From contig NW_003124627.1 in assembly GCF_000003605.2 (NCBI RefSeq), forward strand, positions 1 through 36,759: a DNA stretch of 36,759 nucleotides. The letters are read 5' to 3'. The stretch is from Saccoglossus kowalevskii (lineage: Eukaryota; Hemichordata; Enteropneusta; Harrimaniidae). The first letter of the stretch is position 1, and every line of letters starts with the position of its first letter. Positions 1-36,759 of this stretch are shown here, one piece after another. Under the pieces are notes generated by a model. That model had not been told where the DNA came from, ran no database searches, and was given only the letters and a program-made list of their open reading frames with translations. The position numbers and the translations under genes were made by a program.

Positions 1-81
1 CATTTGCAATTAATATAATATGGCAGTTGTACATAGCATTTCGTGCAATAATCTCAGTGATGGGATTGACAATGTACGGTA

Positions 82-92
82 GTTCTCTTTTT
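82..92 (-). promoter_or_regulatory. Histone downstream element-like purine motif (copy 1)
   Basis: The minus strand reads AAAAAGAGAAC about 12 nt after the stem-loop. In animals, U7 snRNP base-pairs with a purine-rich downstream element at this distance to position cleavage. Copies show four main forms: AAAAAGAGAAC, AAAAGGAGAAC, AACAAGAGAAC, and long A runs before GAAC. The last goes with the UCUG loop variant. Confidence 0.6.
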
Positions 93-104
93 GGAGTATG
101 TGCT

Positions 105-120
105 GGCCCTGAGAAGGGCC
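105..120 (-). terminator. Histone-type 3' stem-loop, copy 1
   Basis: The minus strand reads GGCCCTTCTCAGGGCC: a 6-bp stem GGCCCT/AGGGCC and loop TCTC, fitting the histone consensus of two G-C pairs, three Y-R pairs, one U-A pair and a UHUH loop. The 5' flank is ACAAAAC and the 3' flank AGCAC. In histone mRNA this element binds SLBP and replaces the poly(A) tail. It recurs at the same distance from the stop in 30 other copies. Confidence 0.88.
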
Positions 121-142
121 GTTTTGTATGAGTGTCGTAGCA

Positions 143-403
143 CTATTGCTGACGACGATTTTGCCTTTTCTGGATAATTTTTAAAATCACCCAAGGAGCA
201 TAATCTACAGGATAATTGCCTTCTCTAAGAATTGAGATGACCTCTTCGACAGGTAATAACTGTACGATGGATCGTGCCCAAGACGAAAATGCTCGTGTCC
301 ATGGCTGCGGTGGTCTCCTTGTCAAAAGAGGGCTGGATAAATACGCATAGTAGCATGCTATACGGGAGTCAAACATGATATGGCAGTTGTTATTTGGATC
401 CAT
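143..403 (-). CDS. Copy 1: 86-residue unknown protein with histone-type 3' end
   Basis: The frame runs from an ATG at 403 to a TAG ending at 143. I chose this ATG because it is the first one downstream of the TATA box (453-460) and TCAG initiator (near 428), leaving a leader of about 25 nt, and because it has G at -3 and G at +4. The frame is open further upstream, but only through the promoter. Residues 1-8 are MDPNNNCH. A Pro/Arg-rich stretch covers about 28-36. Possible helices cover about 37-50 and 52-60, and a third (71-80) ends in the basic tail KRQNRRQQ. No signal peptide, membrane segment, histone fold or known catalytic motif is visible. A histone-type stem-loop follows the stop by 22 nt. 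Its product is identical to those of copies 13 and 31 (L27, R60). Function is unknown; a non-coding role of the transcript cannot be excluded. Confidence 0.62.
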   Translation of the reverse strand: MDPNNNCHIMFDSRIACYYAYLSSPLLTRRPPQPWTRAFSSWARSIVQLLPVEEVISILREGNYPVDYAPWVILKIIQKRQNRRQQ

Positions 404-426
404 GTCGATTGATGGTATGGCTGTAT

Positions 427-511
427 CTGATGGAAAACAGTAAATTCTGTCGTTTATAAAAGGGGGTCGGCCAATCAGCTTGATCTCGCACATGTCACTT
501 TTTGAACCAAT
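427..511 (-). promoter_or_regulatory. Core promoter of copy 1 (type A example)
   Basis: Read on the minus strand, this holds inverted CCAAT boxes (ATTGG at 507-511 and 471-475), then TATA (453-460), then a TCAG initiator whose A is at 428, 32 nt from the first TATA base. The order and spacing are those of a compact TATA-driven Pol II promoter, and paired CCAAT boxes are common in histone promoters. The TATA core is palindromic, so orientation is inferred from the boxes, the initiator and the gene. The equivalent TATA in other intact copies lies 50-57 nt upstream of the ATG. Confidence 0.7.
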
Positions 512-641
512 CAGAAATCCCCGTCGAAGTGACAAAGTCGTCCAAACACGAAAATAGTTGTCACATTTTCACTTGTAGGCGGCGTGATTGAAGTTCTACG
601 TTATTGTTTCCACTAAACTTTATTGTGAAGCGAGTTTTTTA

Positions 642-776
642 ATTGCGACGCCATATTTGTTACCAGATACAACCGCGAAAAGGTGACGCTTTAGTACGTC
701 CCGGCAAATTAACAATACATATTCTGAGAGTTTGCATAATGTAGTAATACATGCATTTGATTATTGCAATTTCTAG
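642..776 (+). repeat. Spacer monomer A (example)
   Basis: This is the first of two diverged direct repeats in the spacer, aligning with monomer B at an offset of 171-174 bp. Shared anchors are CCGG...ATTAACA, TACATATTCTGA, AGCTTT and GTAATAC. The two are far more diverged from each other than unit copies are, so the duplication predates the array. Confidence 0.75.
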
Positions 777-812
777 TTCATTACTTGCTCAGTTTCGCAT
801 TGCCAAACTCTT

Positions 813-949
813 ATTCGCAACACATATGTATTAACATATATTTACTCGACAAAAAGATGGCGTTTTTTTGAGAACCGGAGATTAACATTACATATTCTGA
901 AAGCTTTAAATAATTATGTAATACTTGTAATTAATCATTTGAAATTAGC
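813..949 (+). repeat. Spacer monomer B (example)
   Basis: This is the second diverged copy of the ~173-bp monomer. It aligns from ATTCGCAACA through GAAATTAG with monomer A. A weaker, possible third copy may lie around 1033-1075 (TATTCTG...TTGAAATC), but I cannot establish it by eye. Confidence 0.72.
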
Positions 950-2719: not shown

Positions 2720-3504
2720 GTCGATTGATGGTATGGCGGTATCTGATGGAAAACAGTAAATTCTGTCGTTTATAAAAGGGGGTCGGCCAATCAGCTTGAT
2801 CTCGCACATGTCACTTTTTGAACCAATCAGAAATCCCCGTCGAGGTGACAAAGTCGTCCAGACGCGAAAATAGTTGTCACATTTTCACTTGTAGGCGGCG
2901 TGATTGAAGTTCTACGTTATTGTTTCCACTAAACTTTGTTGTGAAGCGGGTTTTTTAATTGCGACGCCTATTTGTTACCAGATACAACCGCGAAACGGAG
3001 ACACTTTAGTACGTCCAGGCAAATTAACAATACATATTCTGAGAGCTTTGCATAATGTAGTAATACATGCATTTGATTATTGCAATTTCTAGTTCATTAC
3101 TTGCTCAGTTTCGCATTGCCAAACTCTTATTCGAAACACATATGTATTAACATATATTTACTCGACAAAAAGATGGCGTTTTGTTGAGAACCGGAGATTA
3201 ACATTACATATTCTGAAAGCTTTAAATAATTATGTAATACTTGTAATTAATCATTTGAAATTAGCTGCTATTACATAATCTGCTTCTACATGTTCTTTTA
3301 CTTAACTGAATTTTTCCAATTTGATGTGCGTCGAATGTTGGCGCTCTTTATTCTGTTTTATGCATTATGACATTGACCTGAATTGGTTGAAATCGCTCTG
3401 ATTTGCAAATTAATATGATATGGCAGTTGTTCATAGCATCACGTGCAATAATCTGAGTGATGGGATGGACAATGTACGGTAGTTCTCCTTTTGGAGTATG
3501 TGCT

Positions 3505-3520
3505 GGCCCTGAGAAGGGCC
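3505..3520 (-). terminator. Histone-type stem-loop, copy 4
   Basis: Canonical sequence. Confidence 0.86.
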
Positions 3521-3542
3521 GTTTTGTATGAGTGTCGTAGCA

Positions 3543-3803
3543 CTATTGCTGACGACGATTTTGCCTTTTCTGGATAATTTTTAAAATCACCCAAGGAGCA
3601 TAATCTACAGGATAATTGCCTTCTCCAAGAATTGAGATGACCTCTTCGACAGGTAATAACTGTACGACGGATCGTGCCCAAGACGAGAATGCTCGTGTCC
3701 ATGGCTGCGGTGGTCTCCTTGTCGAAAGAGGGCTGGATAAATACGCATAGTAGCATGCTATACGGGAGTCAAACATGATATGGCAGTTGTTATTTGGATC
3801 CAT
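3543..3803 (-). CDS. Copy 4: 86-residue unknown protein
   Basis: The frame is intact, with V46 in place of I. The TATA box reads TTTATATA at 3853-3860, still a good TATA element in minus orientation. The stem-loop at 3505-3520 is canonical. The downstream element is the AAAAGGAGAA form also found in copies 3, 8 and 29-31. Confidence 0.6.
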   Translation of the reverse strand: MDPNNNCHIMFDSRIACYYAYLSSPLSTRRPPQPWTRAFSSWARSVVQLLPVEEVISILGEGNYPVDYAPWVILKIIQKRQNRRQQ

Positions 3804-4582
3804 GTCGATTGATGGTATGGCGGTATCTGATGGAAAACAGTAAATTCTGTCGTTTATATAAGGGGGTCGGCCAATCAGCTTGATCTCGCACATGTCACTT
3901 TTTGAACCAATCAGAAATCCCCGTCGAAGTGATAAAGTCGTCCAAACACGAAAATAGTTGTCACATTTTCACTTGTAGGCGGCGTGATTGAAGTTCTACG
4001 TTATTGTTTCCACTAAACTTTGTTGTGAAGCGAGTTTTTTAATTGCGACGCCTATTTGTTACCAGATACAACCGCGAAAAGGTGACGCTTTAGTACGTCC
4101 CGGCAAATTAACAATTCTCAGAGCTTTGCATAATGTAGTAATGCATGCATTTGATTATTGCAATTTCTAGTTCATTACTTGCTCAGTTTCGCATTGCCAA
4201 ACTCTTATTCGCAACACATATGTATTAACATATATTTACTCGACAAAAAGATGGAGTTTTGTTGAGAACCGGAGATTAACATTACATATTCTGAATGCTT
4301 TAAATAATTATGTAATACTTGTAATTAATCATTTGAAATTAGATGCTATTACATAATCTGCTTCTACATGTTCTTTTACTTAACTGAATTATTCCAATGT
4401 GATGTGCGTCGAATGTTGGCGTTCTTTATTCTGTTTTATGCATTATGACATTGACCCGAATTGGTTGAAATCGTTCTGATTTGCAAATAAGTATGATATG
4501 ACAGTTGTACATAGCATTACGTGCAATAATCGCAGTGATGGGATGGACAATGTACGGTAGTTCTCTTTTTGGAGTATGTGCT

Positions 4583-4598
4583 GGCTCTGAGAAGGGCC
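4583..4598 (-). terminator. Stem-loop with one mismatch, copy 5
   Basis: One stem pair becomes C-A. Confidence 0.72.
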
Positions 4599-4620
4599 GT
4601 TTTGTATGAGTGTCGTAGCA

Positions 4621-4882
4621 CTATTGCTGACGACGATTTTGCCTTTTCTGGACAATTTTTTAAAATCACCCAAGGAGCATAATCTACAGGATAATTGCCT
4701 TCTCCAAGAATTGAGATGACCTCTTCGACAGGTAATAACTGTACGATGGATCGTGCCCAAGACGAGAATGCTCATGTCCATGGCTGCGGTGGTCTCCTTG
4801 TCAAAAGAGGGCTGGATAAATACGCATAGTAGCATGCTATACGGGAGTCAAACATGATATGGCAATTGTTATTTGGATCCAT
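4621..4882 (-). pseudogene. Copy 5: broken copy, stop at codon 37 plus frameshift
   Basis: Codon 37 is TGA instead of CGA, a CpG-to-TpG type change shared with copy 14. A one-base insertion in a T run near 4670 shifts the frame close to the 3' end. The core promoter is changed to TTTTTAAA at 4932-4939, so the TATA box is lost, though the TCAG initiator remains. The stem-loop at 4583-4598 has one mismatched pair. At most 36 residues would be made. Confidence 0.75.
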
Positions 4883-5668
4883 GTCGATTGATAGTGAGAC
4901 GTTATCTGATGGAAAAATGTAAACGGCTGTCGTTTTTAAAAAGGCGTTCGGCCAATCAGCTTGATCTCGCACATGTCACTTTTTGAACCAATCAGAAATC
5001 CCCGTCGAAGTGACAAACTCGTCCAAACACGAAAATGGTTGTCACATTTTAACTTGTAGGCGGCGTGATTGAAGTTCTACGTTATTGTTTCCACTAAACT
5101 TTGTTGTGAAGCGAGTTTTTTAATTGCGACGCCTATTTGTTACCAGATACAACCGCGAAAAGGTGACGCTTTAGTACGTCCCGGCAAATTAACAATGCAT
5201 ATTCTGAGAGCTTTGCATAATGCAGTAATACATGCATTTGATTATTGCAATTTCTAGTTCATTACTTGCTCATTTTCGCATTGCCAAACTCTTATTCGCA
5301 ACACATATGTATTAACATATATTTACTCGACAAAAAGATGGCGTTTTGTTGAGACCCGGAGATTAACATTACATATTCTGAAAGCTTAAAATAATTATGT
5401 AATACTTGTAATTAATCATTTGAAATTAGCTGCTATTACATAATCTGCTTCTACATGTTCTTTTACTTAACTGAATTATTCCAATGTGATGTGCGTCGAA
5501 TATTGGCGTTCTTTATTCTGTTTTATGCATTATGACATTGACCCGAATTGGTTGAAATCGTTCTGATTTGCAAATAAGTACGATATGACAGTTGTACATA
5601 GCATTACGTGCAATAATCGCAGTGATGGGATGGACAATGACGGTAGTTCTCTTTTTGGAGTATGTGCT

Positions 5669-5684
5669 GGCCCTGAGAAGGGCC
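5669..5684 (-). terminator. Histone-type stem-loop, copy 6
   Basis: Canonical sequence. Confidence 0.86.
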
Positions 5685-5706
5685 GTTTTGTATGAGTGTC
5701 GTAGCA

Positions 5707-5967
5707 CTATTGCTGACGACGATTTTGCCTTTTCTGGATAATTTTTAAAATCACCCAAGGAGCATAATCTACAGGATAATTGCCTTCTCCAAGAATTGAG
5801 ATGACCTCTTCGACAGGTAATAACTCTACGACGGATCGTGCCCAAGACGAGAATGCTCGTGTCCATGGCTGCGGTGGTCTCCTTGTCGAAAGAGGGCTGG
5901 ATAAATACGCATAGTAGCATGCTATACGGGAGCCAAACATGATATGGCAGTTGTTATTTGGATCCAT
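5707..5967 (-). CDS. Copy 6: 86-residue unknown protein
   Basis: The frame is intact with G12 for D and the pair V46/E48, a set shared in part with copy 9. TATA is at 6017-6024 and the stem-loop at 5669-5684 is canonical. The upstream flank carries small deletions near 6142-6170 that lie outside the recognised promoter boxes. Confidence 0.6.
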   Translation of the reverse strand: MDPNNNCHIMFGSRIACYYAYLSSPLSTRRPPQPWTRAFSSWARSVVELLPVEEVISILGEGNYPVDYAPWVILKIIQKRQNRRQQ

Positions 5968-6751
5968 GTCGATTGATGGTATGGCTGTATCTGATGGAAA
6001 ACAGTAAATTCTGTCGTTTATAAAAGGGGGTCGGCCAATCAGCTTGATCTCGCACATGTCACTTTTTGAACCAATCAGAAATCCCCGTCGAAGTAACAAA
6101 GCCGTCCAAACACGAAAATAGTTGTCACATTTTCACTTGTAGCGGCGTGATTGAAGTTCTACGTTATGTTTCCACTAAACTTTGTTGTGAAGCGAGTTTT
6201 TTTAATTGCGACGCCTATTTGTTACCAGATACAACCGCGAAACGGTGACACTTTAGTACGTCCCGGCAAATTAACAATACATATTCTGAGAGCTTTGCAT
6301 AATGTAGTAATACATGCATTTGATTATTGCAATTTCTAGTTCATTACTTGCTCAGTTTCGCATTGCCAAACTCTTATTCGCACCACATATGTATTAACAT
6401 ATACTTACTCGACAAAAATATGGCGTTTTGTTGAGAACCGGAGATTAACATTACATATTCTGAAAGCTTTAAATAATTATGTAAAACTTGTAATTAAGCA
6501 TTTGAAATTAGCTGCTATTACATAATCTGCTTCTACATGTTCTTTTACTTAACTGAATTATTTCAATTTGATGTGCGTCGAATGTTGGCGCTCTTTATTC
6601 TGTTTTTTGCATTATGACATTGACCTGAATTGGTTGAAATCGTTCTGATTTGCAAATAAGTATGATATGACAGTTGTACATTGCATTACGTGCAATAATC
6701 GCAGTGATGGGATGGACAATGTACGGTAGTTCTTTTTTTGGAGTATGTGCT

Positions 6752-6767
6752 GGCCCTCAGAAGGGCC
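6752..6767 (-). terminator. Stem-loop with UCUG loop, copy 7
   Basis: The stem is perfect, but the last loop base is G, outside the usual UHUH pattern. Confidence 0.78.
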
Positions 6768-6789
6768 GTTTTGTATGAGTGTCGTAGCA

Positions 6790-7050
6790 CTATTGCTGAC
6801 GACGATTTTGCCTTTTCTGGATAATTTTTAAAATCACACAAGGAGCATAATCTACAGGATAATTGCCTTCTTCAAGAATTGAGATGACCTCTTCGACAGG
6901 TAATAACTGTACGATGGATCGTGCCCAAGACGAGAATGCTCGGGTCCATGGCTGCGGTGGTCTCCTTGTCGAAAAAGGGCTGAATAAATACGGATAGTAG
7001 CATGCTATACGGGAGTCCAACATGATATGGCAGTTGTTATTTGGATCCAT
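6790..7050 (-). CDS. Copy 7: intact frame with type B promoter
   Basis: All 86 codons are open with L11, P20, F23, F26, E60 and C71. The core promoter is type B: the TATA position reads CTTTTAAAAG and the TCAG initiator is lost. An extra TATA-bearing promoter module sits upstream at 7264-7504. The stem-loop at 6752-6767 has an atypical UCUG loop, and the downstream element is a longer A run. This combination recurs, in whole or part, in copies 16, 18 and 19. Confidence 0.55.
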   Translation of the reverse strand: MDPNNNCHIMLDSRIACYYPYLFSPFSTRRPPQPWTRAFSSWARSIVQLLPVEEVISILEEGNYPVDYAPCVILKIIQKRQNRRQQ

Positions 7051-7504: not shown

Positions 7505-8079
7505 TAAACTTTGTTGTGAAGCGAGCTTTTTAAATGCGACGCCTATTTGTTACCAGATACAACCGCGAAACGGTGACACTTTAGTACGTCCCGGCAAATT
7601 AACAATACATATTCTGAGAGCTTTGCATAATGTAGTAATACATGCATTTGATTATTGCAATTTCTAGTTCATTACTTGCTCAGTTTCGCATTGCCAAACT
7701 CTTATTCGCAACACATATGTATTAACATATATTTACTCGACAAAAAGATGGCGTTTTGTTGAGAACCGGAGATTAACATTACATATTCTGAAAGCTTTAA
7801 ATAATTATGTAATACTTGTAATTAATCATTTGAAATTAGCTGCTGATACATAATCTGCTTCTACATGTTCTTTTACTTAACTGAATTATTCCAATTTGAT
7901 GTGCGTCGAATGTTGGCGCTCTTTATTCTGTTTTATGCATTATGACATTGACCCGAATTGGTTGAAATCGCTCTGATTTGCAAATTAATATGATATGGCA
8001 GTTGTTCATAGCATTACGTGCAATAATCTGAGTGATGGGATGGACAATGTACGGTAGTTCTCCTTTTGGAGTATGTGCT

Positions 8080-8095
8080 GGCCCTGAGAAGGGCC
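8080..8095 (-). terminator. Histone-type stem-loop, copy 8
   Basis: Canonical sequence. Confidence 0.86.
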
Positions 8096-8117
8096 GTTTT
8101 GTATGAGTGTCGTAGCA

Positions 8118-8378
8118 CTATTGCTGACGACGATTTTGCCTTTTCTGGATAATTTTTAAAATCACCCAAGGCGCATAATCTACAGGATAATTGCCTTCTC
8201 CAAGAATTGAGATGACCTCTTCGACAAGTAATAACTGTACGATGGATCGTGCCCAAGACGAGAATGCTCGTGTCCATGGCTGCGGTGGTCTCCTTGTCGA
8301 AAGAGGGCTGGATAAATACGCATAGTAGCATGCTATACGGGAGTCAAACATGATATGGCAGTTGTTATTTGGATCCAT
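8118..8378 (-). CDS. Copy 8: 86-residue unknown protein
   Basis: The frame is intact; the visible change is L51 for P at the putative turn between the first two helices. TATA is at 8428-8435 and the stem-loop at 8080-8095 is canonical. An extra promoter module lies upstream on the minus strand at 8589-8829. Confidence 0.6.
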   Translation of the reverse strand: MDPNNNCHIMFDSRIACYYAYLSSPLSTRRPPQPWTRAFSSWARSIVQLLLVEEVISILGEGNYPVDYAPWVILKIIQKRQNRRQQ

Positions 8379-8829: not shown

Positions 8830-9405
8830 TAAACTTTATTGTGAAGCGAGTTTTTTTAATTGCAACGCCTATTTGTTACCAGATACAACCGCGAAAAGGT
8901 GACGCTTTAGTACGTTCCGGCAAATTAACAATACATATTCTGAGAGCTTTGCATAATGTAGTAATACATGCATTTGATTATTGCAATTTCTAGTTCATTA
9001 CTTGCTCAGTTTCGCATTGCCAAACTCTTACTCGCAACACATATGTATTATCATATATTTACTCGACAAAAAGATGGAGTTTTGTTGAGAACCGGAGATT
9101 AACATTACATATTCTGAATGCTTTAAATAATTATGTAATACTTGTAATTAATCATTTGAAATTAGCTGCTATTACATAATCTGCTTCTACATGTTCTTAT
9201 ACTTAACTGAATTATTCCAATGTGATGTGCGTCGAATGTTGGCGTTCTTTATTCTGTTTTATGCATTATGACATTGACCCGAATTGGTTGAAATCGTTCT
9301 GATTTGCAAATAAGTATGATATGACAGTTGTACATAGCATTACGTGCAACAATCGCAGTGATGGGATGGACAATGTACGGTAGTTCTCTTTTTGGAGTAT
9401 GTGCT

Positions 9406-9421
9406 GGCCCTGAGAAGGGCC
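9406..9421 (-). terminator. Histone-type stem-loop, copy 9
   Basis: Canonical sequence. Confidence 0.86.
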
Positions 9422-9443
9422 GTTTTGTATGAGTGTCGTAGCA

Positions 9444-9704
9444 CTATTGCTGACGACGATTTTGCCTTTTCTGGATAATTTTTAAAATCACCCAAGGAGC
9501 ATAATCTACAGGATAATTGCCTTCTCCAAGAATTGAGATGACCTCTTCGACAGGTAATAACTCTACGACGGATCGTGCCCAAGACGAGAATGCTCGTGTC
9601 CATGTCTGCGGTGGTCTCCTTGTCGAAAGAGGGCTGGATAAATACGCATAGTAGCATGCTATACGGGAGTCAAACATGATATGGCAGTTGTTATTTGGAT
9701 CCAT
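9444..9704 (-). CDS. Copy 9: 86-residue unknown protein
   Basis: The frame is intact with T34 for P and V46/E48. TATA is at 9754-9761 and the stem-loop at 9406-9421 is canonical. It begins a run of three very similar units (copies 9-11) whose spacers share GGAG for GGCG and an A-to-T change in the second spacer monomer; copies 21-22 have the same marks. Confidence 0.6.
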   Translation of the reverse strand: MDPNNNCHIMFDSRIACYYAYLSSPLSTRRPPQTWTRAFSSWARSVVELLPVEEVISILGEGNYPVDYAPWVILKIIQKRQNRRQQ

Positions 9705-10490
9705 GTCGATTGATGGTATGGCTGTATCTGATGGAAAACAGTAAATTCTGTCGTTTATAAAAGGGGGTCGGCCAATCAGCTTGATCTCGCACATGTCACT
9801 TTTTGAACCAATCAGAAATCCCCGTCGAAGTAACAAAGTCGTCCACACACGAAAATAGTTGTCACATTTTCACTTGTAGGCGGCGTGATTGAAGTTCTAC
9901 GTTATTGTTTCCACTAAACTTTATTGTGAAGCGAGTTTTTTTAATTGCAACGCCTATTTGTTACCAGATACAACCGCGAAAAGGTGACGCTTTAGTACGT
10001 CCCGGCAAATTAACAATACATATTCTGAGAGCTTTGCATAATGTAGTAATACATGCATTTGATTATTGCAATTTCTAGTTCATTACTTGCTCAGTTTCGC
10101 ATTGCCAAACTCTTATTCGCAACACATATGTATTAACATATATTTACTCGACAAAAAGATGGAGTTTTGTTGAGAACCGGAGATTAACATTACATATTCT
10201 GAATGCTTTAAATAATTATGTAATACTTGTAATTAATCATTTGAAATTAGCTGCTATTACATAATCTGCTTCTACATGTTCTTTTACTTAACTGAATTAT
10301 TCCAACGTGATGTGCGTCGAATGTTGGCGTTCTTTATTCTGTTTTATGCATTATGACATTCACCTGAATTGGTTGAAATCGTTCTGATTTGCAAATAAGT
10401 ATGATATGACAGCTGTACATAGCATTACGTGCAATAATCGCAGTGATGGGATGGACAATGTACGGTAGTTCTCTTTTTGGAGTATGTGCT

Positions 10491-10506
10491 GGCCCTGAGA
10501 AGGGCC
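10491..10506 (-). terminator. Histone-type stem-loop, copy 10
   Basis: Canonical sequence. Confidence 0.86.
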
Positions 10507-10528
10507 GTTTTGTATGAGTGTCGTAGCA

Positions 10529-10789
10529 CTATTGCTGACGACGATTTTGCCTTTTCTGGATAATTTTTAAAATCACCCAAGGAGCATAATCTACAGGATA
10601 ATTGCCTTCTCCAAGAATTGAGATGACCTCTTCGACAGGTAATAACAGTACGACGGATCGTGCCCAAGACGAGAATGCTCGTGTCCATGGCTGCGGTGGT
10701 CTCCTTGTCGAAAGAGGGCTGGATAAATACGCATAGTAGCATGCTATACGGGAGTCAAACATGATATGGCAGTTGTTATTTGGATCCAT
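10529..10789 (-). CDS. Copy 10: 86-residue unknown protein
   Basis: The frame is intact with V46 and L48. TATA is at 10839-10846 and the stem-loop at 10491-10506 is canonical. Its flanks match copies 9 and 11 almost base for base. Confidence 0.6.
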   Translation of the reverse strand: MDPNNNCHIMFDSRIACYYAYLSSPLSTRRPPQPWTRAFSSWARSVVLLLPVEEVISILGEGNYPVDYAPWVILKIIQKRQNRRQQ

Positions 10790-11575: not shown

Positions 11576-11591
11576 GGCCCTGAGAAGGGCC
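11576..11591 (-). terminator. Histone-type stem-loop, copy 11
   Basis: Canonical sequence. Confidence 0.86.
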
Positions 11592-25106: not shown

Positions 25107-25368
25107 CTATTGCTGACGACGATTTTGCCTTTTCTGGATAATTTTTAAAATCACCCAAGGAGCATAATCTACAGGATAATTGCCTTCTCCAAGAATTGAG
25201 ATGACCTATTCGACAGGTAATAACTGTACGATGGATCGTTCCCAAGACGGGAAATGCTCGTGTCCATGGCTGCGGTGGTCTCCTTGTCGAAAGAGGGCTG
25301 GATAAACACGCTTAGTAGCATGCTATACGCGAGTCCAACATGATATGGCAGTTGTTATCTGGATCCAT
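25107..25368 (-). pseudogene. Copy 23: stop at codon 19 and frameshift
   Basis: Codon 19 is TAA for TAT, and a one-base insertion (GGGAAATG) follows. The TATA position reads TTTATTAAAAG, which keeps only part of a TATA element. The stem-loop at 25069-25084 is canonical. Only an 18-residue peptide would be made. Confidence 0.75.
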
Positions 25369-26154
25369 GTCGATTGATAGTATGACGGTATCTGATGGAA
25401 AAATGTAAACGGCTGTCGTTTATTAAAAGGCGTTCGGCCAATCAGCATGATCTCGAACATGTCACTTTTCGAACCAATCAGAAATCCCCGTCGAAGTGAC
25501 AAACTCGTCCAAACACGAAAATGGTTGTCACATTTTAACTTGTAGGCGGCGTGATTGAAGTTCTACGTTATTGTTTCCACTAAACTTTGTTGTGAAGCGA
25601 GTTTTTTAATTGCGACGCCTATTTGTTACCAGATACAACCGCGAAAAGGTGACGCTTTAGTACGTCCCGGCAAATTAACAATACATATTCTGAGAGCTTT
25701 GCATAATGCAGTAATACATGCATTTGATTATTGCAATTTCTAGTTCATTACTTGCTCATTTTCGCATTGCCAAACTCTTATTCGCAACACATATGTATTA
25801 ACATATATTTACTCGACAAAAAGATGGCGTTTTGTTGAGAACCGGAGATTAACATTACATATTCTGAAAGCATTAAATAATTATGTAATACTTGTAATTA
25901 ATCATTTGAAATTAGCTGCTATTACATAATCTGCTTCTACATGTTCTTTTACTTAACTGAATTATTCCACTGTGATGTGTGTCGAATGTTGGCGCTCTTT
26001 ATTCTGTTTTATGCATTGTGACATTGACCCGAATTGGTTGAAATCGTTCTCATTTGCAAATTAATATAATATGGCAGTTGTACATAGCATTTCGTGCAAT
26101 AATCTCAGTGATGGGATTGACATGTACGGTAGTTCTCTTTTTGGAGTATGTGCT

Positions 26155-26170
26155 GGCCCTGAGAAGGCCC
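26155..26170 (-). terminator. Damaged stem-loop, copy 24
   Basis: One stem pair becomes G-G. Confidence 0.7.
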
Positions 26171-26190
26171 GTTTGTATGAGTGTCGTAGC

Positions 26191-26449
26191 ACTCTGCTGA
26201 CGACGATTTGCCTTTCTGGATATTTTTTAAATCACACAAGGAGCATAATCTACAGGATAATTGCCTTTCTTCAAGAATTGAGATGACCTCTTCGACAGGT
26301 AATAACTGTACGATGGATCGTGCCCAAGACGAGAATGCTCGGGTCCATGGCTGCGGTGTTCTCCTTGTCGAAAAAGGGCTGAATAAAAACGCATAGTATC
26401 GTGCTATACGGGAGTCCAACATGATAGGGCAGTTGTTATTTGGATACAT
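26191..26449 (-). pseudogene. Copy 24: heavily decayed type B copy
   Basis: The first 61 codons follow the type B pattern (Y2, L11, R17). Several single-base losses and gains then shift the frame, the normal stop is missing, and reading continues through the stem-loop region to 26105. The promoter lacks TATA. The stem-loop at 26155-26170 has a broken pair. Two extra promoter modules follow. Confidence 0.75.
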
Positions 26450-26661
26450 GTCGATTGATAGTATGGCGGTATCATATGGAAAAATGTAAAGGGCTGTCGT
26501 TTTTAAAAAGGCGTTCGGCCAATCAGCATGATCTCGCACATGTCACTTTTCGAACCAATCGGAAATCCCCGTCGAAGCGACAAAGTCGTCCAAACACGAA
26601 AATAGTTGTCACATTTTCACTTGTAGGCGGCGTGATTGAAGTTCTACGTTATTGTTTCCAC

Positions 26662-26902
26662 AGTTGTTATGGCAGTTGTTACTTGGATCCATGTTGATTT
26701 ATGGCATGCCGGTATCTGATGGAAAACAGTAAATTCTGTCGTTTATAAAAGGGGGTCGGCCAATCAGCTTGATCTCGCACATGTCACTTTTTGAACCAAT
26801 CGGAAATCCCCGTCGAAGCGACAAAGTCGTCCAAACACGAAAATAGTTGTCACATTTTCACTTGTAGGCGGCGTGATTGAAGTTCTACGTTATTGTTTCC
26901 AC
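26662..26902 (-). promoter_or_regulatory. First of two extra promoter modules upstream of copy 24
   Basis: TATA is kept. The outer flank carries type B bases (AATCGG, GAAGCGAC) matching the main promoter of copy 24, so this module is a mosaic. Confidence 0.68.
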
Positions 26903-27143
26903 AGTTGTTATGGCAGTTGTTACTTGGATCCATGTTGATTTATGGCATGGCGGTATCTGATGGAAAACAGTAAATTCTGTCGTTTATAAAAGGGGGTCGG
27001 CCAATCAGCTTGATCTCGCACATGTCACTTTTTGAACCTATCAGAAATCCCCGTCGAAGTGACAAAGTCGTCCAAACACGAAAATAGTTGTCACATTTTC
27101 ACTTGTAGGCGGCGTGATTGAAGTTCTACGTTATTGTTTCCAC
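26903..27143 (-). promoter_or_regulatory. Second extra promoter module upstream of copy 24
   Basis: This is a further tandem copy of the same module, so copy 24 has three promoters in a row at about 241-bp spacing. The outer CCAAT box reads CCTAT. Confidence 0.68.
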
Positions 27144-27719
27144 TAAACTTTATTGTGAAGCGAGTTTTTTTATTGCGACGCCTATTTGTTACCAGATACA
27201 ACCGCGAAAAGGTGACGCTTTAGTACGTCCCGGCAAATTAACAATACATATTCTGAGAGCTTTGCATAATGTAGTAATACATGCATTTGATTATTGCAAT
27301 TTCTAGTTCATTACTTGCTCAGTTTCGCATTGCCAAACTCTTATTCGCAACACATATGTATTAACATATATTTACTCGACAAAAAGGTGGCGTTTTGTTG
27401 AGAACCGGAGATTAACATTACATATTCTGAAAGCTTTAAATAATTATGTAATACTTGTAATTAATCATTTGAAATTAGCTGCTATTACATAATCTGCTTC
27501 TACATGTTCTTTTACTTAACTGAATTATTCCAATTTGATGTGCGTCGAATGTTGGCGCTCTTTATTCTGTTTTATGCATTATGACATTGACCCGAATTGG
27601 TTGAAATCGTTCTGATTTGCAAATAAGTATGATATGACAGTTGTACATTGCATTACGTGCAATAATCGCAGTGATGGGATGGACAATGTACGGTAGTTCT
27701 TTTTTTTGGAGTATGTGCT

Positions 27720-27735
27720 GACCCTGAGAAGGGCC
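27720..27735 (-). terminator. Stem-loop with G-U pair, copy 25
   Basis: One outer pair is G-U, so the stem can still form. The loop is TCTC. Confidence 0.78.
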
Positions 27736-27757
27736 GTTTTGTATGAGTGTCGTAGCA

Positions 27758-28018
27758 CTATTGCTGACGACGATTTTGCCTTTTCTGGATAATTTTTAAA
27801 ATCACACAAGGAGCATAATCTACAGGATAATTGCCTTCTTCAAGAATTGAGATGACCTCTTCGACAGGTAATAACTGTACGATGGATCGTGCCCAAGACG
27901 AGAATGCTCGGGTCCATGGCTGCGGTGGTCTCCTTGTCGAAAAAGGGCTGAATAAATACGCATAGTAGTATGCTATACGGGAGTCCAACATGATATGGCA
28001 GTTGTTATTTCGATCCAT
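27758..28018 (-). CDS. Copy 25: intact frame with type B promoter
   Basis: All 86 codons are open with R3, L11, Y17, F23, F26, E60 and C71. The promoter lacks TATA and TCAG, and unlike most type B copies there is no extra promoter module upstream. The stem-loop at 27720-27735 keeps pairing through a G-U wobble. Confidence 0.53.
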   Translation of the reverse strand: MDRNNNCHIMLDSRIAYYYAYLFSPFSTRRPPQPWTRAFSSWARSIVQLLPVEEVISILEEGNYPVDYAPCVILKIIQKRQNRRQQ

Positions 28019-28774: not shown

Positions 28775-29049
28775 TTATGTAATACTTGTAATTAATCATT
28801 TGAAATTAGCTGCTATTACATAATCTGCTTCTACATGTTCTTTTACTTAACTGAATTATTCCAATGTGATGTGCGTCGAATGTTGGCGCTCTTTATTCTG
28901 TTTTATGCATTATGACATTGACCTGAATTGGTTGAAATCGTTCTGATTTGCAAATAAGTATGATATGACAGTTGTACATTGCATTACGTGCAATAATCGC
29001 AGTGATGGGATGGACAATGTACGGTAGTTCTTTTTTTGGAGTATGTGCT

Positions 29050-29065
29050 GGCCCTCAGAAGGGCC
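29050..29065 (-). terminator. Stem-loop with UCUG loop, copy 26
   Basis: Perfect stem, loop ending in G. Confidence 0.78.
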
Positions 29066-29087
29066 GTTTTGTATGAGTGTCGTAGCA

Positions 29088-29348
29088 CTATTGCTGACGA
29101 CGATTTTGCCTTTTCTGGATAATTTTTAAAATCACCCAAGGAGCATAATCTACAGGATAATTGCCTTCTCCAAGAATTGAGATGACCTCTTCGACAGGTA
29201 ATAACTGTACGATGGATCGTGCCCAAGACGAGAATGCTCGTGACCATGGCTGCGGTGGTCTCCTTATCGAAAGAGGGCTGGATAAATACGCATAGTAGCA
29301 TGCTATACGGGAGTCAAACATGATATGGCAGTTGTTATTTGGATCCAT
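29088..29348 (-). CDS. Copy 26: 86-residue unknown protein
   Basis: The frame is intact with I28 and S36. TATA is at 29398-29405. The stem-loop at 29050-29065 has the UCUG loop despite the type A coding region, so a conversion breakpoint lies between them. An extra promoter module follows at 29559-29783. Confidence 0.57.
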   Translation of the reverse strand: MDPNNNCHIMFDSRIACYYAYLSSPLSIRRPPQPWSRAFSSWARSIVQLLPVEEVISILGEGNYPVDYAPWVILKIIQKRQNRRQQ

Positions 29349-29783: not shown

Positions 29784-30358
29784 TAAACTTTATTGTGAAG
29801 CGAGTTTTTTAATTGCGACGCCTATTTGTTACCAGATACAACCGCGAAAAGGTGACGCTTTAGTACGTCCCGGCAAATTATCAATACATATTCTGAGAGC
29901 TTTGCATAATGTAGTAATACATGCATTTGATTATTGCAATTTCTAGTTCATTACTTGCTCAGTTTCGCATTGCCAAACTCTTATTCGCAACACATATGTA
30001 TTAACATATATTTACTCGACAAAAAGTTGGCGTTTTGTTGAGAACCGGAGATTAGCATTACATATTCTGAAAGCTTTAAATAATTATGTAATACTTGTAA
30101 TTAATCATTTGAAATTAGCTGCTATTACATAATCTGTTTCTACATGTTCTTTTACTTAACTGAATTATTCCAATGTGATGTGCGTCGAATGTTGGCGCTC
30201 TTTATTCTGTTTTATGCATTGTGACATTGACCTGAATTGGTTGAAATCGTTCTGATTTGCAAATTAATATGATATGGCAGTTGTTCATAGCATTACGTGC
30301 AATAATCTGAGTGATGGGATGGACAATGTACGGTAGTTCTCTTGTTGGAGTATGTGCT

Positions 30359-30374
30359 GGCCCTGAGAAGGGCC
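30359..30374 (-). terminator. Histone-type stem-loop, copy 27
   Basis: Canonical sequence. Confidence 0.86.
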
Positions 30375-30396
30375 GTTTTGTATGATTGTCGTAGCA

Positions 30397-30657
30397 CTAT
30401 TGCTGACGACGATTTTGCCTTTTCTGGATAATTTTTAAAATCACCCAAGGAGCATAATCTACAGGATAATTGCCTTCTCCAAGAATTGAGATGACCTCTT
30501 CGACAGGTAATAACTGTACGATGGATCGTGCCCAAGACGGGAATGCTCGTGACCATGGCTGCGGTGGTCTCTTTATCGAAAGAGGGCTGGATAAATACGC
30601 ATAGTAGCATGCTATACGGGAGTCAAACATGATATGGCAGTTGTTATTTGGATCCAT
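30397..30657 (-). CDS. Copy 27: 86-residue unknown protein
   Basis: The frame is intact with I28, K29, S36 and P40. TATA is at 30707-30714 and the stem-loop at 30359-30374 is canonical. The downstream element is the AACAAGAGAAC form shared with copies 12 and 17. Confidence 0.6.
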   Translation of the reverse strand: MDPNNNCHIMFDSRIACYYAYLSSPLSIKRPPQPWSRAFPSWARSIVQLLPVEEVISILGEGNYPVDYAPWVILKIIQKRQNRRQQ

Positions 30658-31442
30658 GTCGATTGATGGTATGTCGGTATCTGATGGAAAACAGTAAATT
30701 CTGTCGTTTATAAAAGGGGGTCGGCCAATCAGCTTGATCTCGCACATGTCACTTTTTGAACCAATCAGAAATCCCCGTCGAAGTGACAAAGTCGTCCAAA
30801 CGCGAAAATAGTTGTCACATTTTCACTTATAGGCGGCGTGATTGAAGTTCTACGTTATTGTTTCCACTAAACTTTGTTGTGAAGCGAGTTTTTTAAATGC
30901 GACGCCTATTTGTTACCAGATACAACCGTGAAAAGGTGACGCTTTAGTACGTCCCGGCAAATTAACAATACATATTCTGAGAGCTTTGCATAATGTAGTA
31001 ATACATGCATTTGATTATTGCAATTTCTAGTTCATTACTTGCTCAGTTTCGCATTGCCAAACTCTTATTCGCAACACATATGTATTAACATATATTTACT
31101 CGACAAAAAGATGGCGTTTTGTTGAGAACCGGAGATTAACATTACATATTCTGAAAGCTTTAAATAATTATGTAATACTTGTAATTAAGCATTTGAAATT
31201 AGCTGCTATTACATAATCTGCTTCTACATGTTCTTTTACTTAACTGAATTATTCCAATGTGATGTGCGTCGAATGTTGGCGCTCTTTATTCTGTTTTATG
31301 CATTATGACATTGACCTGAATTGGTTGAAATCGTTCTGATTTGCAAAGTAATATGATATGGCAGTTGTTCATAGTATTACGTGCAATAATCTGAGTGATG
31401 GGATGGACAATGTACTGTAGTTCTGCTTTTGGAGTATGTGCT

Positions 31443-31458
31443 GGCCCTGAGAAGGGCC
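31443..31458 (-). terminator. Histone-type stem-loop, copy 28
   Basis: Canonical sequence. Confidence 0.86.
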
Positions 31459-31480
31459 GTTTTGTATGAGTGTCGTAGCA

Positions 31481-31741
31481 CTATTGCTGACGACGATTTT
31501 GCCTTTTCTGGATAATTTTTAAAATCACACAAGGAGCATAATCTACAGGATAATTGCCTTCTCCAAGAATTGAGATGACCTGTTCGACAGGTAATAACTG
31601 TACGATGGATCGTGCCCAAGACGGGAATGCTCGTGACCATGGCTGCGGTGGTCTCCTTATCGAAAGAGGGCTGGATAAATACGCATAGTAGCATGCTATA
31701 CGGGAGTCAAACATGATATGGCAGTTGTTATTTGGATCCAT
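31481..31741 (-). CDS. Copy 28: 86-residue unknown protein
   Basis: The frame is intact with I28, S36, P40, Q54 and C71. TATA is at 31791-31798 and the stem-loop at 31443-31458 is canonical. Confidence 0.6.
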   Translation of the reverse strand: MDPNNNCHIMFDSRIACYYAYLSSPLSIRRPPQPWSRAFPSWARSIVQLLPVEQVISILGEGNYPVDYAPCVILKIIQKRQNRRQQ

Positions 31742-32526
31742 GTCGATTGATGGTATGTCGGTATCTGATGGAAAACAGTAAATTCTGTCGTTTATAAAAG
31801 GGGGTCGGCCAATCAGCTTGATCTCGCACATGTCACTTTTTGAACCAATCAGAAATCCCCGTCGAAGTGACAAAGTCGTCCAGACGCGAAAATAGTTGTC
31901 ACATTTTCACATGTAGGCGGCGTGATTGAAGTTCTACGTTATTGTTTCCACTAAACTTTGTTGTGAAGCGGGTTTTTTAATTGCGACGCCTATTTGTTAC
32001 CAGATACAACCGCGAAAAGGTGACGCTTTAGTACGTCCCGGCAAATTAACAATACATATTCTGAGAGCTTTGCATAATGTAGTAATACATGCATTTGATT
32101 ATTGCAATTTCTAGTTCATTACTTGCTCAGTTTCGCATTGCCAAACTCTTATTCGCAACACATATGTATTAACATATATTTACTCGACAAAATGATGGCG
32201 TTTTGTTGAGAACCGGAGATTAACATTACATATTTTGAAAGCTTTAAATAATTATGTAATACTTGTAATTAATCATTTGAAATTAGCTGCTATTACATAA
32301 TCTGCTTCTACATGTTCTTTTACTTAACTGAATTTTTCCAATTTGATGTGCGTCGAATGTTGGCGTTCTTTATTCTGTTTTATGCATTATGACATTGACC
32401 TGAATTGGTTGAAATCGATCTGATTTGCAAATTAATATGATATGGCAGTTGTTCATAGCATTACGTGCAATAATCTGAGTGATGGGATGGACAATGTACG
32501 GTAGTTCTCCTTTTGGAGTATGTGCT

Positions 32527-32542
32527 GGCCCTGAGAAGGGCC
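32527..32542 (-). terminator. Histone-type stem-loop, copy 29
   Basis: Canonical sequence. Confidence 0.86.
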
Positions 32543-32564
32543 GTTTTGTATGAGTGTCGTAGCA

Positions 32565-32824
32565 CTATTGCTGACGACGATTTTGCCTTTTCTGGATAAT
32601 TTTGAAAATCACCCAAGGCGCATAATCTACAGGATAATTGCCTTCTCCAAGAATTGAGATGACCTCTTCGACAAGTAATAACTGTACGATGGATCGTGCC
32701 CAAGACGAAAATGCTCGTGTCCATGGCTGCGGTGGTCTCTTGTCAAAAGAGGGCTGGATAAATACGCATAGTAGCATGCTATACGGGAGTCAAACATGAT
32801 ATGGCAGTTGTTATTTGGATCCAT
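32565..32824 (-). pseudogene. Copy 29: one-base deletion, 65-residue frameshifted product
   Basis: A C is missing from the GGTCTCC run near 32739, shifting the frame after T28; the shifted frame stops at 32627. TATA (32874-32881) and the stem-loop (32527-32542) are intact. The lesion is a single base in a short homopolymer, so an assembly error is possible. Confidence 0.65.
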
Positions 32825-33609
32825 GTCGATTGATGGTATGGCGGTATCTGATGGAAAACAGTAAATTCTGTCGTTTATAAAAGGGGGTCGGCCAATCAGC
32901 TTGATCTCGCACATGTCACTTTTTGAACCAATCAGAAATCCCCGTCGAAGTGACAAAGTCGTCCAGACGCAAAAATAGTTGTCACATTTTCATTTGTAGG
33001 CGGCGTGATTGAAGTTCTACGTTATTGTTTCCACTAAACTTTGTTGTGAAGCGGGTTTTTTAATTGCGACGCCTATTTGTTACCAGATACAACCGCGAAA
33101 CGGAGACACTTTAGTACGTCCCGGCAAATTAACAATACATATTCTGAGAGCTTTGCATAATGTAGTAATACATGCATTTGATTATTGCAATTTCTAGTTC
33201 ATTACTTGCTCAGTTTCGCATTGCCAAACTCTTATTCGCAACACATATGTATTAACATATATTTACTCGACAAAAAGATGGCGTTTTGTTGAGAACCGGA
33301 GATTAACATTACATATTCTGAAAGCTTTAAATAATTATGTAATACTTGTAATTAATCATTTGAAATTAGCTGCTATTACATAATCTGCTTCTACATGTTC
33401 TTTTACTTAACTGAATTTTTCCAATTTGATGTGCGTCGAATGTTGGCGCTCTTTATTCTGTTTTATGCATTATGACATTGACCTGAATTGGTTGAAATCG
33501 CTCTGATTTGCAAATTAATATGATATGGCAGTTGTTCATAGCATCACGTGCAATAATCTGAGTGATGGGATGGACAATGTACGGTAGTTCTCCTTTTGGA
33601 GTATGTGCT

Positions 33610-33625
33610 GGCCCTGAGAAGGGCC
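33610..33625 (-). terminator. Histone-type stem-loop, copy 30
   Basis: Canonical sequence. Confidence 0.86.
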
Positions 33626-33647
33626 GTTTTGTATGAGTGTCGTAGCA

Positions 33648-33909
33648 CTATTGCTGGCGACGATTTTGCCTTTTCTGGATAATTTTTAAAATCACCCAAG
33701 GAGCATAATCTACAGGATAATTGCCTTCTCCAAGAATTTGAGATGACCTCTTCGACAGGTAATAACTGTACGACGGATCGTGCTCAAGACGAGAATGCTC
33801 GTGTCCATGGCTGCGGTGGTCTCCTTGTCGAAAGAGGGCTGGATAAATACGCATAGTAGCATGCTATACGGGAGTCAAACATGATATGGCAGTTGTTATT
33901 TGGATCCAT
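33648..33909 (-). pseudogene. Copy 30: stop at codon 42 plus insertion
   Basis: Codon 42 is TGA for TGG, ending the product at 41 residues (stop at 33784). A separate one-base insertion lies in the T run near 33737. TATA (33959-33966) and the stem-loop (33610-33625) are intact. Confidence 0.7.
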
Positions 33910-34688
33910 GTCGATTGATGTTAAGGCGGTATCTGATGGAAAACAGTAAATTCTGTCGTTTATAAAAGGGGGTCGGCCAATCAGCTTGATCTCGCACATG
34001 TCACTTTTTGAACCAATCAGAAATCCCCGTCGAAGTGATAAAGTCGTCCAAACACGAAAATAGTTGTCACATTTTCACTTGTAGGCGGCGTGATTGAAGT
34101 TCTACGTTATTGTTTCCACTAAACTTTGTTGTGAAGCGAGTTTTTTAATTGCGACGCCTATTTGTTACCAGATACAACCGCGAAAAGGTGACGCTTTAGT
34201 ACGTCCCGGCAAATTAACAATTCTGACAGCTTTGCATAATGTAGTAATACATGCATTTGATTATTGCAATTTCTAGTTCATTACTTGCTCAGTTTCGCAT
34301 TGCCAAACTCTTATTCGCAACACATATGTATTAATATATATTTACTCGACAAAAAGTTGGCGTTTTGTTGAGAACCGGAGATTAACATTACATATTCTGA
34401 AAGCTTTAAATAATTATGTAATACTTGTAATTAATCATTTGAAATTAGCTGCTACTACATAATTTGCTTCTACATGTTCTTTTACTTAACTGAATTATTC
34501 CAATGTGATGTGCGTCGAATGTTGGCGCTCTTTATTCTGTTTTATGCATTATGACATTGACCTGAATTGTTTGAAATCGTTCTGATTTGCAAATTAATAT
34601 GATATGGCAGTTGTTCATAGCATTACGTGCAATAATCTGAGTGATGGGATGGACAATGTACGGTAGTTCTCCTTTTGGAGTATGTGCT

Positions 34689-34704
34689 GGCCCTGAGAAG
34701 GGCC
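34689..34704 (-). terminator. Histone-type stem-loop, copy 31
   Basis: Canonical sequence. Confidence 0.86.
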
Positions 34705-34726
34705 GTTTTGTATGAGTGTCGTAGCA

Positions 34727-34987
34727 CTATTGCTGACGACGATTTTGCCTTTTCTGGATAATTTTTAAAATCACCCAAGGAGCATAATCTACAGGATAAT
34801 TGCCTTCTCTAAGAATTGAGATGACCTCTTCGACAGGTAATAACTGTACGATGGATCGTGCCCAAGACGAAAATGCTCGTGTCCATGGCTGCGGTGGTCT
34901 CCTTGTCAAAAGAGGGCTGGATAAATACGCATAGTAGCATGCTATACGGGAGTCAAACATGATATGGCAGTTGTTATTTGGATCCAT
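34727..34987 (-). CDS. Copy 31: 86-residue unknown protein
   Basis: The product is identical to copies 1 and 13. TATA is at 35037-35044 and the stem-loop at 34689-34704 is canonical. The spacer to its left has a 6-bp loss in the first monomer, also seen between copies 4 and 5. Confidence 0.61.
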   Translation of the reverse strand: MDPNNNCHIMFDSRIACYYAYLSSPLLTRRPPQPWTRAFSSWARSIVQLLPVEEVISILREGNYPVDYAPWVILKIIQKRQNRRQQ

Positions 34988-35772
34988 GTCGATTGATGGT
35001 ATGGCGGTATCTGATGGAAAACAGTAAATTCTGTCGTTTATAAAAGGGGGTCGGCCAATCAGCTTGATCTCGCACATGTCACTTTTTGAACCAATCAGAA
35101 ATCCCCGTCGAAGTGACAAAGTCGTCCAGACGCGAAAATAGTTGTCACATTTTCACTTGTAGGCGGCGTGATTGAAGTTCTACGTTATTGTTTCCACTAA
35201 ACTTTGTTGTGAAGCGGGTTTTTTAATTGCGACGCCTATTTGTTACCAGATACAACCGCGAAACGGTGACACTTTAGTACGTCCCGGCAAATTAACAATA
35301 CATATTCTGAGAGCTTTGCATAATGTAGTAATACATGCATTTGATTATTGCAATTTCTAGTTCATTACTTGCTCAGTTTCGCATTGCCAAACTCTTATTC
35401 GCAACACATATGTATTAACATATATTTACTCGACAAAAAAATGGCGTTTTGTTGAGAACCGGAGATTAACATTACATATTCTGAAAGCTTTAAATAATTA
35501 TGTAATACTTGTAATTAATCATTTGAAATTAGCTGCTATTACATAATCTGCTTCTACATGTTCTTTTACTTAACTGAATTATTCCAATGTGATGTGCGTC
35601 GAATGTTGGCGCTCTTTATTCTGTTTTATGCATTATGACATTGACCTGAATTGGTTGAAATCGTTCTGATTTGCAAATTAATATGATATGGCAGTAGTTC
35701 ATAGCATTACGTGCAATAATCTGAGTGATGGGATGGACAATGTACGGTAGTTCTCTTTTTGGAGTATGTGCT

Positions 35773-35788
35773 AGCCCTGAGAAGGCTC
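35773..35788 (-). terminator. Damaged stem-loop, copy 32
   Basis: Substitutions on both arms remove the outer pairs, leaving about four pairs (AGCC/GGCT). Confidence 0.7.
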
Positions 35789-35809
35789 GTTTGTATGAGT
35801 GTCGTAGCA

Positions 35810-36070
35810 CTATTGCTGACGACGATTTTGCCTTTTCTGGATAATTTTTAAAATCACCCAAGGAGCATAATCTACAGGATAATTGCCTTATCCAAGAATT
35901 GAGATGACCTCTTCGACAGGTAATAACTGTACGATGGATCGTGCCCAAGACGAGAATGCTCGTGTCCATTGCTGCGGTGGTCTCCTTGTCGAAAGAGGGC
36001 TGGATAAATACGCATAGTAGCATGCTATACGGGAGTCAAACATGATATGGCAGTTGTTATTTGGATCCAT
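35810..36070 (-). pseudogene. Copy 32: stop at codon 61, stem-loop damaged
   Basis: Codon 61 is TAA for GAA, giving 60 residues with stop at 35888. The stem-loop at 35773-35788 has lost its outer pairs. TATA at 36120-36127 is intact. Confidence 0.7.
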
Positions 36071-36759
36071 GTCGATTGATGGTATGGCGGTATCTGATGG
36101 AAAACAGTAAATTCTGTCGTTTATAAAAGGGGGTCGGCCAATCAGCTTGATCTCGCACATGTCACTTTTTGAACCAATCAGAAATCCCCGTCGAAGTGAT
36201 AAAGTCGTCCAAACACGAAAATAGTTGTCACATTTTCACTTGTAGGCGGCGTGATTGAAGTTCTACGTTATTGTTTCCACTAAACTTTGTTGTGAAGCGA
36301 GTTTTTTAATTGCGACGCCTATTTGTTACCAGATACAACCGCGAAAAGGTGACGCTTTAGTACGTCCCGGCAAATTAACAATACATATTTTCAGAGCTTT
36401 GCATAATGTAGTAATACATGCATTTGATTATTGCAATTTCTAGTTCATTACTTGCTTAGTTTCGCATTGCCAAACTCTTATTCGCAACACATATGTATTA
36501 ATATATATTTACTCGACAAAAAGTTGGCGTTTTGTTGAGAACCGGAGATTAACATTACGTATTCTGAAAGCTTTAAATAATTATGTAACAGTTGTAATTA
36601 ATCATTTGAAATTAGCTGCTATTACATAATCTGCTTCCACATGTTCTTTTACTTAACTGAATTATTCCAATGTGATGTGCGTCGAATGTTGGCGCTCTTT
36701 ATTCTGTTTTATGCATTATGACATTGACCTGAATTGGTTGAAATCGTTCTGATTTGCAA

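Follow-up and report, generated by a model that had tools for sequence, protein, structure and literature searches.

Predicted histone-type 3' ends on a tandem minigene array and on dispersed repeats of Saccoglossus kowalevskii

Tandem repeats of histone genes are exemplified by those of sea urchin and fly, and the stem-loop ending of replication-dependent histone transcripts is, according to the textbook rule, reserved for histone genes. U7 small nuclear RNA (snRNA) and the histone downstream element (HDE) are treated in PMC7026596. Here we describe a tandem array of non-histone minigenes that occupies the contig NW_003124627.1 of the hemichordate Saccoglossus kowalevskii (assembly GCF_000003605.2; C1716 in our numbering); this entire contig of 36,759 bases is the window of our analysis. 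The sequence supports the reading that the 3' ends of this array are of the histone type, and we consider it fairly probable that such arrays are satellite-like assemblies of S-phase-type units, standing among several selfish or multicopy families that use the histone 3'-end pathway. If the transcripts are real, the textbook rule is broken, and the surprise extends beyond the window, to selfish and multicopy non-histone genes with 3' ends of the histone type in the genome that we searched (572 Mb, 4,830 contigs). We found no literature report of such ends on transposons or tandem non-histone genes among titles and the starts of abstracts, a corpus that most subscription journals fall outside of.

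Layout of the array and its 3' ends

All array features of the window lie on the minus strand. A BLAST search with the reference gene (copy 31) returned 41 places, namely 31 full genes, one 3'-truncated gene body and nine gene-start stubs of 28 nt. The units are spaced by about 1,084 bp, and by more at ten places, through 241-bp promoter duplications. Promoter anchors in the window number 43, compared with 32 gene bodies, so that there are probably 11 extra promoters. The promoter and gene start have thus themselves been tandemly duplicated, in units of about 241 bp at ten places, yielding extra promoters without genes; the stretch 26428-27143, with three copies, is an example. The features are as follows.

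35732-36070, minus: gene copy 1; stop at codon 61 of the 86-codon frame; altered stem-loop; HDE
34648-34987, minus: gene copy 2; frame intact; stem-loop; HDE
33569-33909, minus: gene copy 3; stop at codon 42 and frameshift; stem-loop; HDE
32486-32824, minus: gene copy 4; frameshift; stem-loop; HDE
31402-31741, minus: gene copy 5; frame intact; stem-loop; weak HDE
30318-30657, minus: gene copy 6; frame intact; stem-loop; HDE
29009-29348, minus: gene copy 7; frame intact; stem-loop (loop variant); HDE
27678-28018, minus: gene copy 8; frame intact; stem-loop with one stem change; HDE
26115-26449, minus: gene copy 9; indels in frame; altered stem-loop; HDE
25028-25368, minus: gene copy 10; two stops and frameshift; stem-loop; HDE
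23943-24282, minus: gene copy 11; frame intact; stem-loop; HDE
22858-23197, minus: gene copy 12; frame intact; stem-loop; HDE
21678-21871, minus: 3'-truncated gene body (32nd copy), without stem-loop
21159-21498, minus: gene copy 13; stop at codon 78; stem-loop (loop variant); HDE
19833-20171, minus: gene copy 14; start codon ACG and frameshift; stem-loop (loop variant); HDE
18506-18845, minus: gene copy 15; frame intact; stem-loop; HDE
17194-17534, minus: gene copy 16; frameshift; stem-loop (loop variant); HDE
16112-16449, minus: gene copy 17; frameshift; stem-loop; HDE
15025-15367, minus: gene copy 18; stop at codon 37 and frameshift; altered stem-loop; HDE
13946-14285, minus: gene copy 19; frame intact; stem-loop with one stem change; HDE
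12622-12961, minus: gene copy 20; start codon GTG; stem-loop; HDE
11536-11874, minus: gene copy 21; frame intact; stem-loop; HDE
10450-10789, minus: gene copy 22; frame intact; stem-loop; HDE
9365-9704, minus: gene copy 23; frame intact; stem-loop; HDE
8039-8378, minus: gene copy 24; frame intact; stem-loop; HDE
6711-7050, minus: gene copy 25; frame intact; stem-loop (loop variant); HDE
5629-5967, minus: gene copy 26; frame intact; stem-loop; HDE
4542-4882, minus: gene copy 27; stop at codon 37 and frameshift; stem-loop with one stem change; HDE
3464-3803, minus: gene copy 28; frame intact; stem-loop; HDE
2394-2719, minus: gene copy 29; frame intact; altered stem-loop; shortened HDE
1148-1487, minus: gene copy 30; frame intact; stem-loop; HDE
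64-403, minus: gene copy 31 (reference); intact frame 146-403; stem-loop 105-120; HDE at about 76-92
404-520, minus: promoter of gene copy 31, with two GATTGG (CCAAT) boxes and TATA
1463-1938, minus: duplication of promoter and gene start (about 241 bp), one of ten
starts at 7026, 8359, 12937, 17513, 18824, 20150, 21849, 26428 and 29324, minus: the nine other duplications of about 241 bp

The gene family is present on at least five contigs (C1112, C1716, C2493, C439 and C2911, which hold all 150 scored protein matches), a lower bound given that 150 matches were scored among 212 candidates. A 26-nt word from the gene body, allowing up to three mismatches, occurs at 173 places in the genome, its reversed control at none; the first 100 places listed all fall on C439, C1112, C1716 and C2493. 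Array matches span C1112, C2493 and C1716 almost from end to end.

The original prediction placed a histone-type stem-loop or a close variant in 31 of the 32 copies, 22 nt past the stop codon. Both statements hold: the truncated 32nd copy is the one without a stem-loop, and the distance measures 22 nt in the reference copy and about 22 nt in the other full copies. The exact stem-loop occurs 19 times in the window and five more copies differ solely in the last base of the loop, so that the six-pair stem is unaltered in 24 of 31. One array stem-loop folds at -11.4 kcal/mol, with a z-score of -3.9 against shuffles. In the covariance search that the original prediction had proposed, the Rfam model RF00032 (Histone3) recognised 29 of 31 copies below its gathering score (cmscan; 20.6-32.1 bits, E-values of 1.4e-5 to 0.28), all of them on the minus, coding strand and 24 of them at E-values of 5.7e-4 or better. 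Matches to Rfam RMST_1 on the plus strand (E-values of 1.4 to 5.8) were dismissed as chance.

A purine-rich element at the distance expected for U7 had likewise been anticipated, and it begins 12 nt past the stem, as it does in the host histone genes. These have a near-identical 3' block with the same 12-nt spacing, mostly with ACTACCGT following the purine core; their stop codons lie 28-33 nt, once 42 nt, from the stem-loop, which was present within 150 nt in 21 of 26 rows. Directly after the stem, the host histone genes mostly have ACCACATCCTCCAAAAAGAGAACTACCGT and the array mostly AGCACATACTCCAAAAAGAGAACTACCGT, at identical spacing.

To identify the host U7 snRNA, we ran the Rfam U7 model over the genome, where 65 of 69,676 candidates were scored and 11 weak matches emerged, none over the cut-off. 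Of the first eight that we read, we discarded seven, including tandem AT-rich repeats on C2117, and one had a candidate pairing region; the remaining three of the 11 are U7 copies. A pattern search of four regions then gave five distinct U7 snRNA genes (loci L011 and L079-L082); C62 holds four of them and C3649 the fifth. All five copies have the 5' sequence ACGGTATATCTCTTTTCAATTTCTCCAG in common, with an invariant pairing region. Their 3' hairpin comprises 13 pairs; 95.4% of its cells are paired, and in two of the pairs both sides have changed, a number reached by 16 of 500 shuffles; sliding the partner strand by 1-3 columns lowers pairing to 35-51%.

Pairing with the 5' end of this host U7 was the test on which the original prediction had staked itself. 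The consensus array element forms a 15-bp duplex with a 2-nt internal mismatch, near that of host H3, and 24 of 31 array elements outpair all 300 of their own mononucleotide shuffles. The duplex energy averages -15.8 kcal/mol over the 31 copies, compared with -5.9 kcal/mol for random 35-mers from the same strand and -18.9 kcal/mol for the host H3 element; 22 of 31 elements pair at -16.2 kcal/mol or better, while copy 5 is weak (-8.0 kcal/mol). The RNA-binding domain of SLBP (PF15247) is encoded on C1837, in two neighbouring pieces.

Upstream of the genes, the predicted TATA and paired CCAAT boxes are evident in the consensus, which has GATTGG boxes at -109 and -73 and a TATA element starting at -57. 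Host H3 promoters (of genes with stem-loops) have CCAAT boxes and TATAAATA, and host H2A promoters ATTGG and TATAAATA; within the 140 nt inspected, paired boxes of this kind are missing from the host H2B promoters and from most of the H4 promoters shown. The full unit would accordingly resemble a small, apparently intronless polymerase II transcription unit, with a CCAAT/TATA promoter, a short frame and a histone-type 3' end. We infer that host SLBP would bind the stem-loop and that host U7 snRNA would base-pair, through its 5' end, with the downstream element, whereupon the U7 snRNP machinery would cut the pre-mRNA between the two and release an S-phase transcript without poly(A). Amplification of such a unit, presumably selfish, may have given rise to the tandem arrays, which are satellite-like and would evolve in concert.

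The same ending on other families in the genome

A genome-wide Histone3 search gave 73 matches (75 of 50,532 candidates scored); in the controls there was a match in one of 14 and none over the cut-off. The exact 18-nt stem-loop GGCCCTTTTCAGGGCCAC, with its TTTT loop, occurs at 83 places in the genome and its reversed control at none. Twenty of these follow a same-strand core histone match by no more than 1.2 kb and one follows a linker histone match (C1143), leaving 62 of 83 at no detected histone gene. We read 22 of these 62; they belong to loci L047-L078, which were picked as top Histone3 scores, so that the sample is biased to good stem-loops, and among the unread ones there may be histone remnants missed by the family models. 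Six of the 22 are in two DDE transposase families, 12 and probably one more are in a HIRAN-type repeat, and three are of unknown kind. The original view that this ending is essentially restricted to histone genes is therefore wrong here, since it sits inside two transposon families and a HIRAN-type repeat.

Three of the stem-loops are in a DDE_3 family. At L061 (C1343, 3220-4868) a transposase piece matches DDE_3 with an E-value of 1.5e-20, in a copy broken into two frames; L051 and L072 were assigned to the family by DNA similarity, and the last frame piece of L072 has no DDE match. The stem-loop follows the transposase stop by 27 nt in L061 and L072 and lies within a block common to copies at different places; BLAST detected no terminal repeats in this family. 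Three further stem-loops are in a pogo-like DDE_1 family, with L060 (C3323, 2615-4904) and L059 (C3161) as members, both partly masked. L060 matches DDE_1 with an E-value of 4e-17, carries the stem-loop and U7 site 31 nt past the transposase stop, and has 27-nt terminal repeats of 96% identity that begin and end in TA; its ends recur at a second place with different flanks. The 12 stem-loops of the dispersed HIRAN-type repeat, L064, L067, L069 and L073 among them, were joined by DNA similarity, flank or frame pieces, and the two members tested (L064 and L067) match Pfam HIRAN; C351 looks, by eye, like a diverged member.

Stem-loop and downstream element together occur at 98 exact places, the reversed control again at none. 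By hand count, array contigs hold 50 of these, histone genes account for 18, including one at a linker histone (C3166), and the other 30 are elsewhere; the block shared across families mostly measures about 50-70 nt. The three stem-loops of unknown kind are those of C46 and C96 (L077 and L075), a mutually similar pair, and of C996 (L065), all at non-histone places. L076 (C1597) is a Histone3-match locus at which the stem-loop patterns found none. The H2B genes L035 and L036 carry SPRK/SPTK in their tails in addition to the stem-loop; we take these tails to resemble those of sperm-type H2B. A piece of mitochondrial COX1 stays open when TGA is read as Trp, and it has AAA where most animals have Lys, which speaks against an echinoderm; the histone tails did not discriminate here.

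Whether histone pre-mRNA processing is, in this animal, a general route of expression for selfish DNA, be it transposons, the HIRAN repeat or minigene arrays, seems to us evenly balanced. If so, expression in S phase may benefit elements whose movement or amplification takes place during replication, and a tail-less end might evade controls on poly(A) transcripts. Whether selfish DNA can take over a pathway thought private to histones thereby becomes testable.

Evolution of the 86-codon frame and competing explanations

As predicted, the frame bears no histone sequence. Three of the 86-aa frames gave no Pfam match, no transposase included; no relatives were found in PHROGs or IMG/VR, and PDB sequences returned one insignificant row (E-value of 1.2). 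The array contigs are absent among the genome matches to PF00125 and PF00538 (histone fold and linker histone). A second overlapping frame of at least 105 codons crosses gene and stem-loop in many units (8014-8331, minus, and equivalents); the one tested has no significant Pfam match (best E-value of 0.098). An origin from a frameshifted histone was considered and rejected: within the best 60 BLAST rows the overlap with host histones is mainly the block of stem-loop and downstream element, the longer rows measuring 93-96 nt at 78-81% and 131 nt at 73% (one place on C260, in two overlapping loci). None of the 30 tblastn rows listed (E-values up to 0.007) comes from the 86-aa frame; all derive from the second overlapping frame, mostly via the stem-loop block.

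The frame is intact in 19 of 31 copies. Its variants comprise 14 synonymous, 52 missense and 7 stop changes, where 18.2, 50.2 and 4.6 were expected, and pN/pS within the array is 1.31. Singletons number 18.4 per 100 sites in the frame and 12.5-31.7 in blocks of the spacer; they are depleted in neither frame, stem-loop nor downstream element. The frame has a lower mean diversity than the promoter, yet much of the spacer is low as well. With neutral-looking variants and frame singletons at about the level of the spacer, the array evolves like a satellite. There is no sign of protein-level selection within it, although redundant copies could hide selection on a few, and the claim that the family encodes something functional is to this extent unsupported.

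Several observations weigh against the reading of the array as a user of the histone 3'-end pathway. The covariance search did not bear out the prediction at the RF00032 gathering score of 34 bits, which none of the 31 copies attains, possibly on account of the second base after the stem, a G here and a C in host histones. Stem changes, read by eye, affect 7 of 31 copies, and singletons in the stem-loop reach 43.8 per 100 sites (on 16 sites only), compared with 18.4 in the frame; with no depletion there, selection on the array 3' end is not visible. The lax U7 threshold also produces matches in 12 of 14 prokaryote controls, and the host U7 genes that were scored stay below the Rfam gathering score, so that their identification is founded on the structure shared by the five copies and not on Rfam. 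Seven of 31 array elements do not beat all of their own shuffles, and the best 1% of random 35-mers reach -14.8 kcal/mol, the best one -18.1 kcal/mol, in a sample that may include elements. Finally, the first ATG past the TATA opens a frame of at least 86 codons with a stop no more than 45 nt before the stem-loop in only 0.445% of 20,000 dinucleotide shuffles, assuming transcription to start 30 nt past the TATA; at this chance of 0.0045, the unit did once, or does, code, and it was probably born coding.

This last result, with the stop 22 nt before the stem-loop, together with the 19 intact frames and a promoter resembling those of host H3 and H2A, would suit a functional multigene family, expressed in S phase, with selection on its 86-aa protein and a high copy number that provides dosage, as in histone repeats. 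Such a family is nevertheless unlikely, given a pN/pS of 1.31, stops and missense changes at or above neutral expectation, frame singletons no fewer than in most of the spacer and a frame with no relative in the databases searched, even if redundancy can hide selection. The satellite-like evolution, the undepleted singletons in frame, stem-loop and downstream element, the near-filling of C1112, C2493 and C1716 and the 12 of 31 frames that are not intact could also be read as silent satellite DNA, in which the histone-type 3' end is an unused relic of a founding gene. We judge this quite unlikely in view of the 24 unaltered stems and the 22 well-pairing elements, though recent homogenisation could explain both. 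That the transcript acts as RNA, as a non-coding S-phase RNA or a small-RNA source with an incidental frame, appears highly improbable: it would accord with neutrality at the protein level, but the transcribed stretch lacks a clear excess of conservation over the spacer, and the way in which the frame is placed between TATA and stem-loop speaks against it. We favour the array of S-phase-type units that evolves like a satellite and is provided with a histone-type 3' end.

Comparison with known systems

With the 3' ends of replication-dependent histone mRNAs the array has in common the six-pair stem, the four-base loop and the A-rich 5' flank, and with the corresponding genes the element 12 nt past the stem and its predicted pairing with host U7, as well as a short unit with no introns in view and a CCAAT/TATA promoter. 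It departs from them in its non-histone protein, in a 3' flank of AGCA where the host genes have ACCA, and in falling under the Rfam gathering cut-off. The pogo/Tc1-type DDE transposons of the same genome have the same stem-loop and downstream element, there 27-31 nt past the transposase stop; unlike the array they are dispersed, the DDE_1 family with terminal repeats, whereas the one unit-sized stretch of the array examined (64-1220) has no terminal repeats and only one 18-nt palindrome. In its high copy number, short units, histone-type ends and homogenised look, the array resembles the tandem histone gene repeats, from which it differs in having a single, non-histone gene per unit and neutral protein evolution within the array; the host histone genes that we found are on contigs other than those of the array, several of them in mixed clusters.

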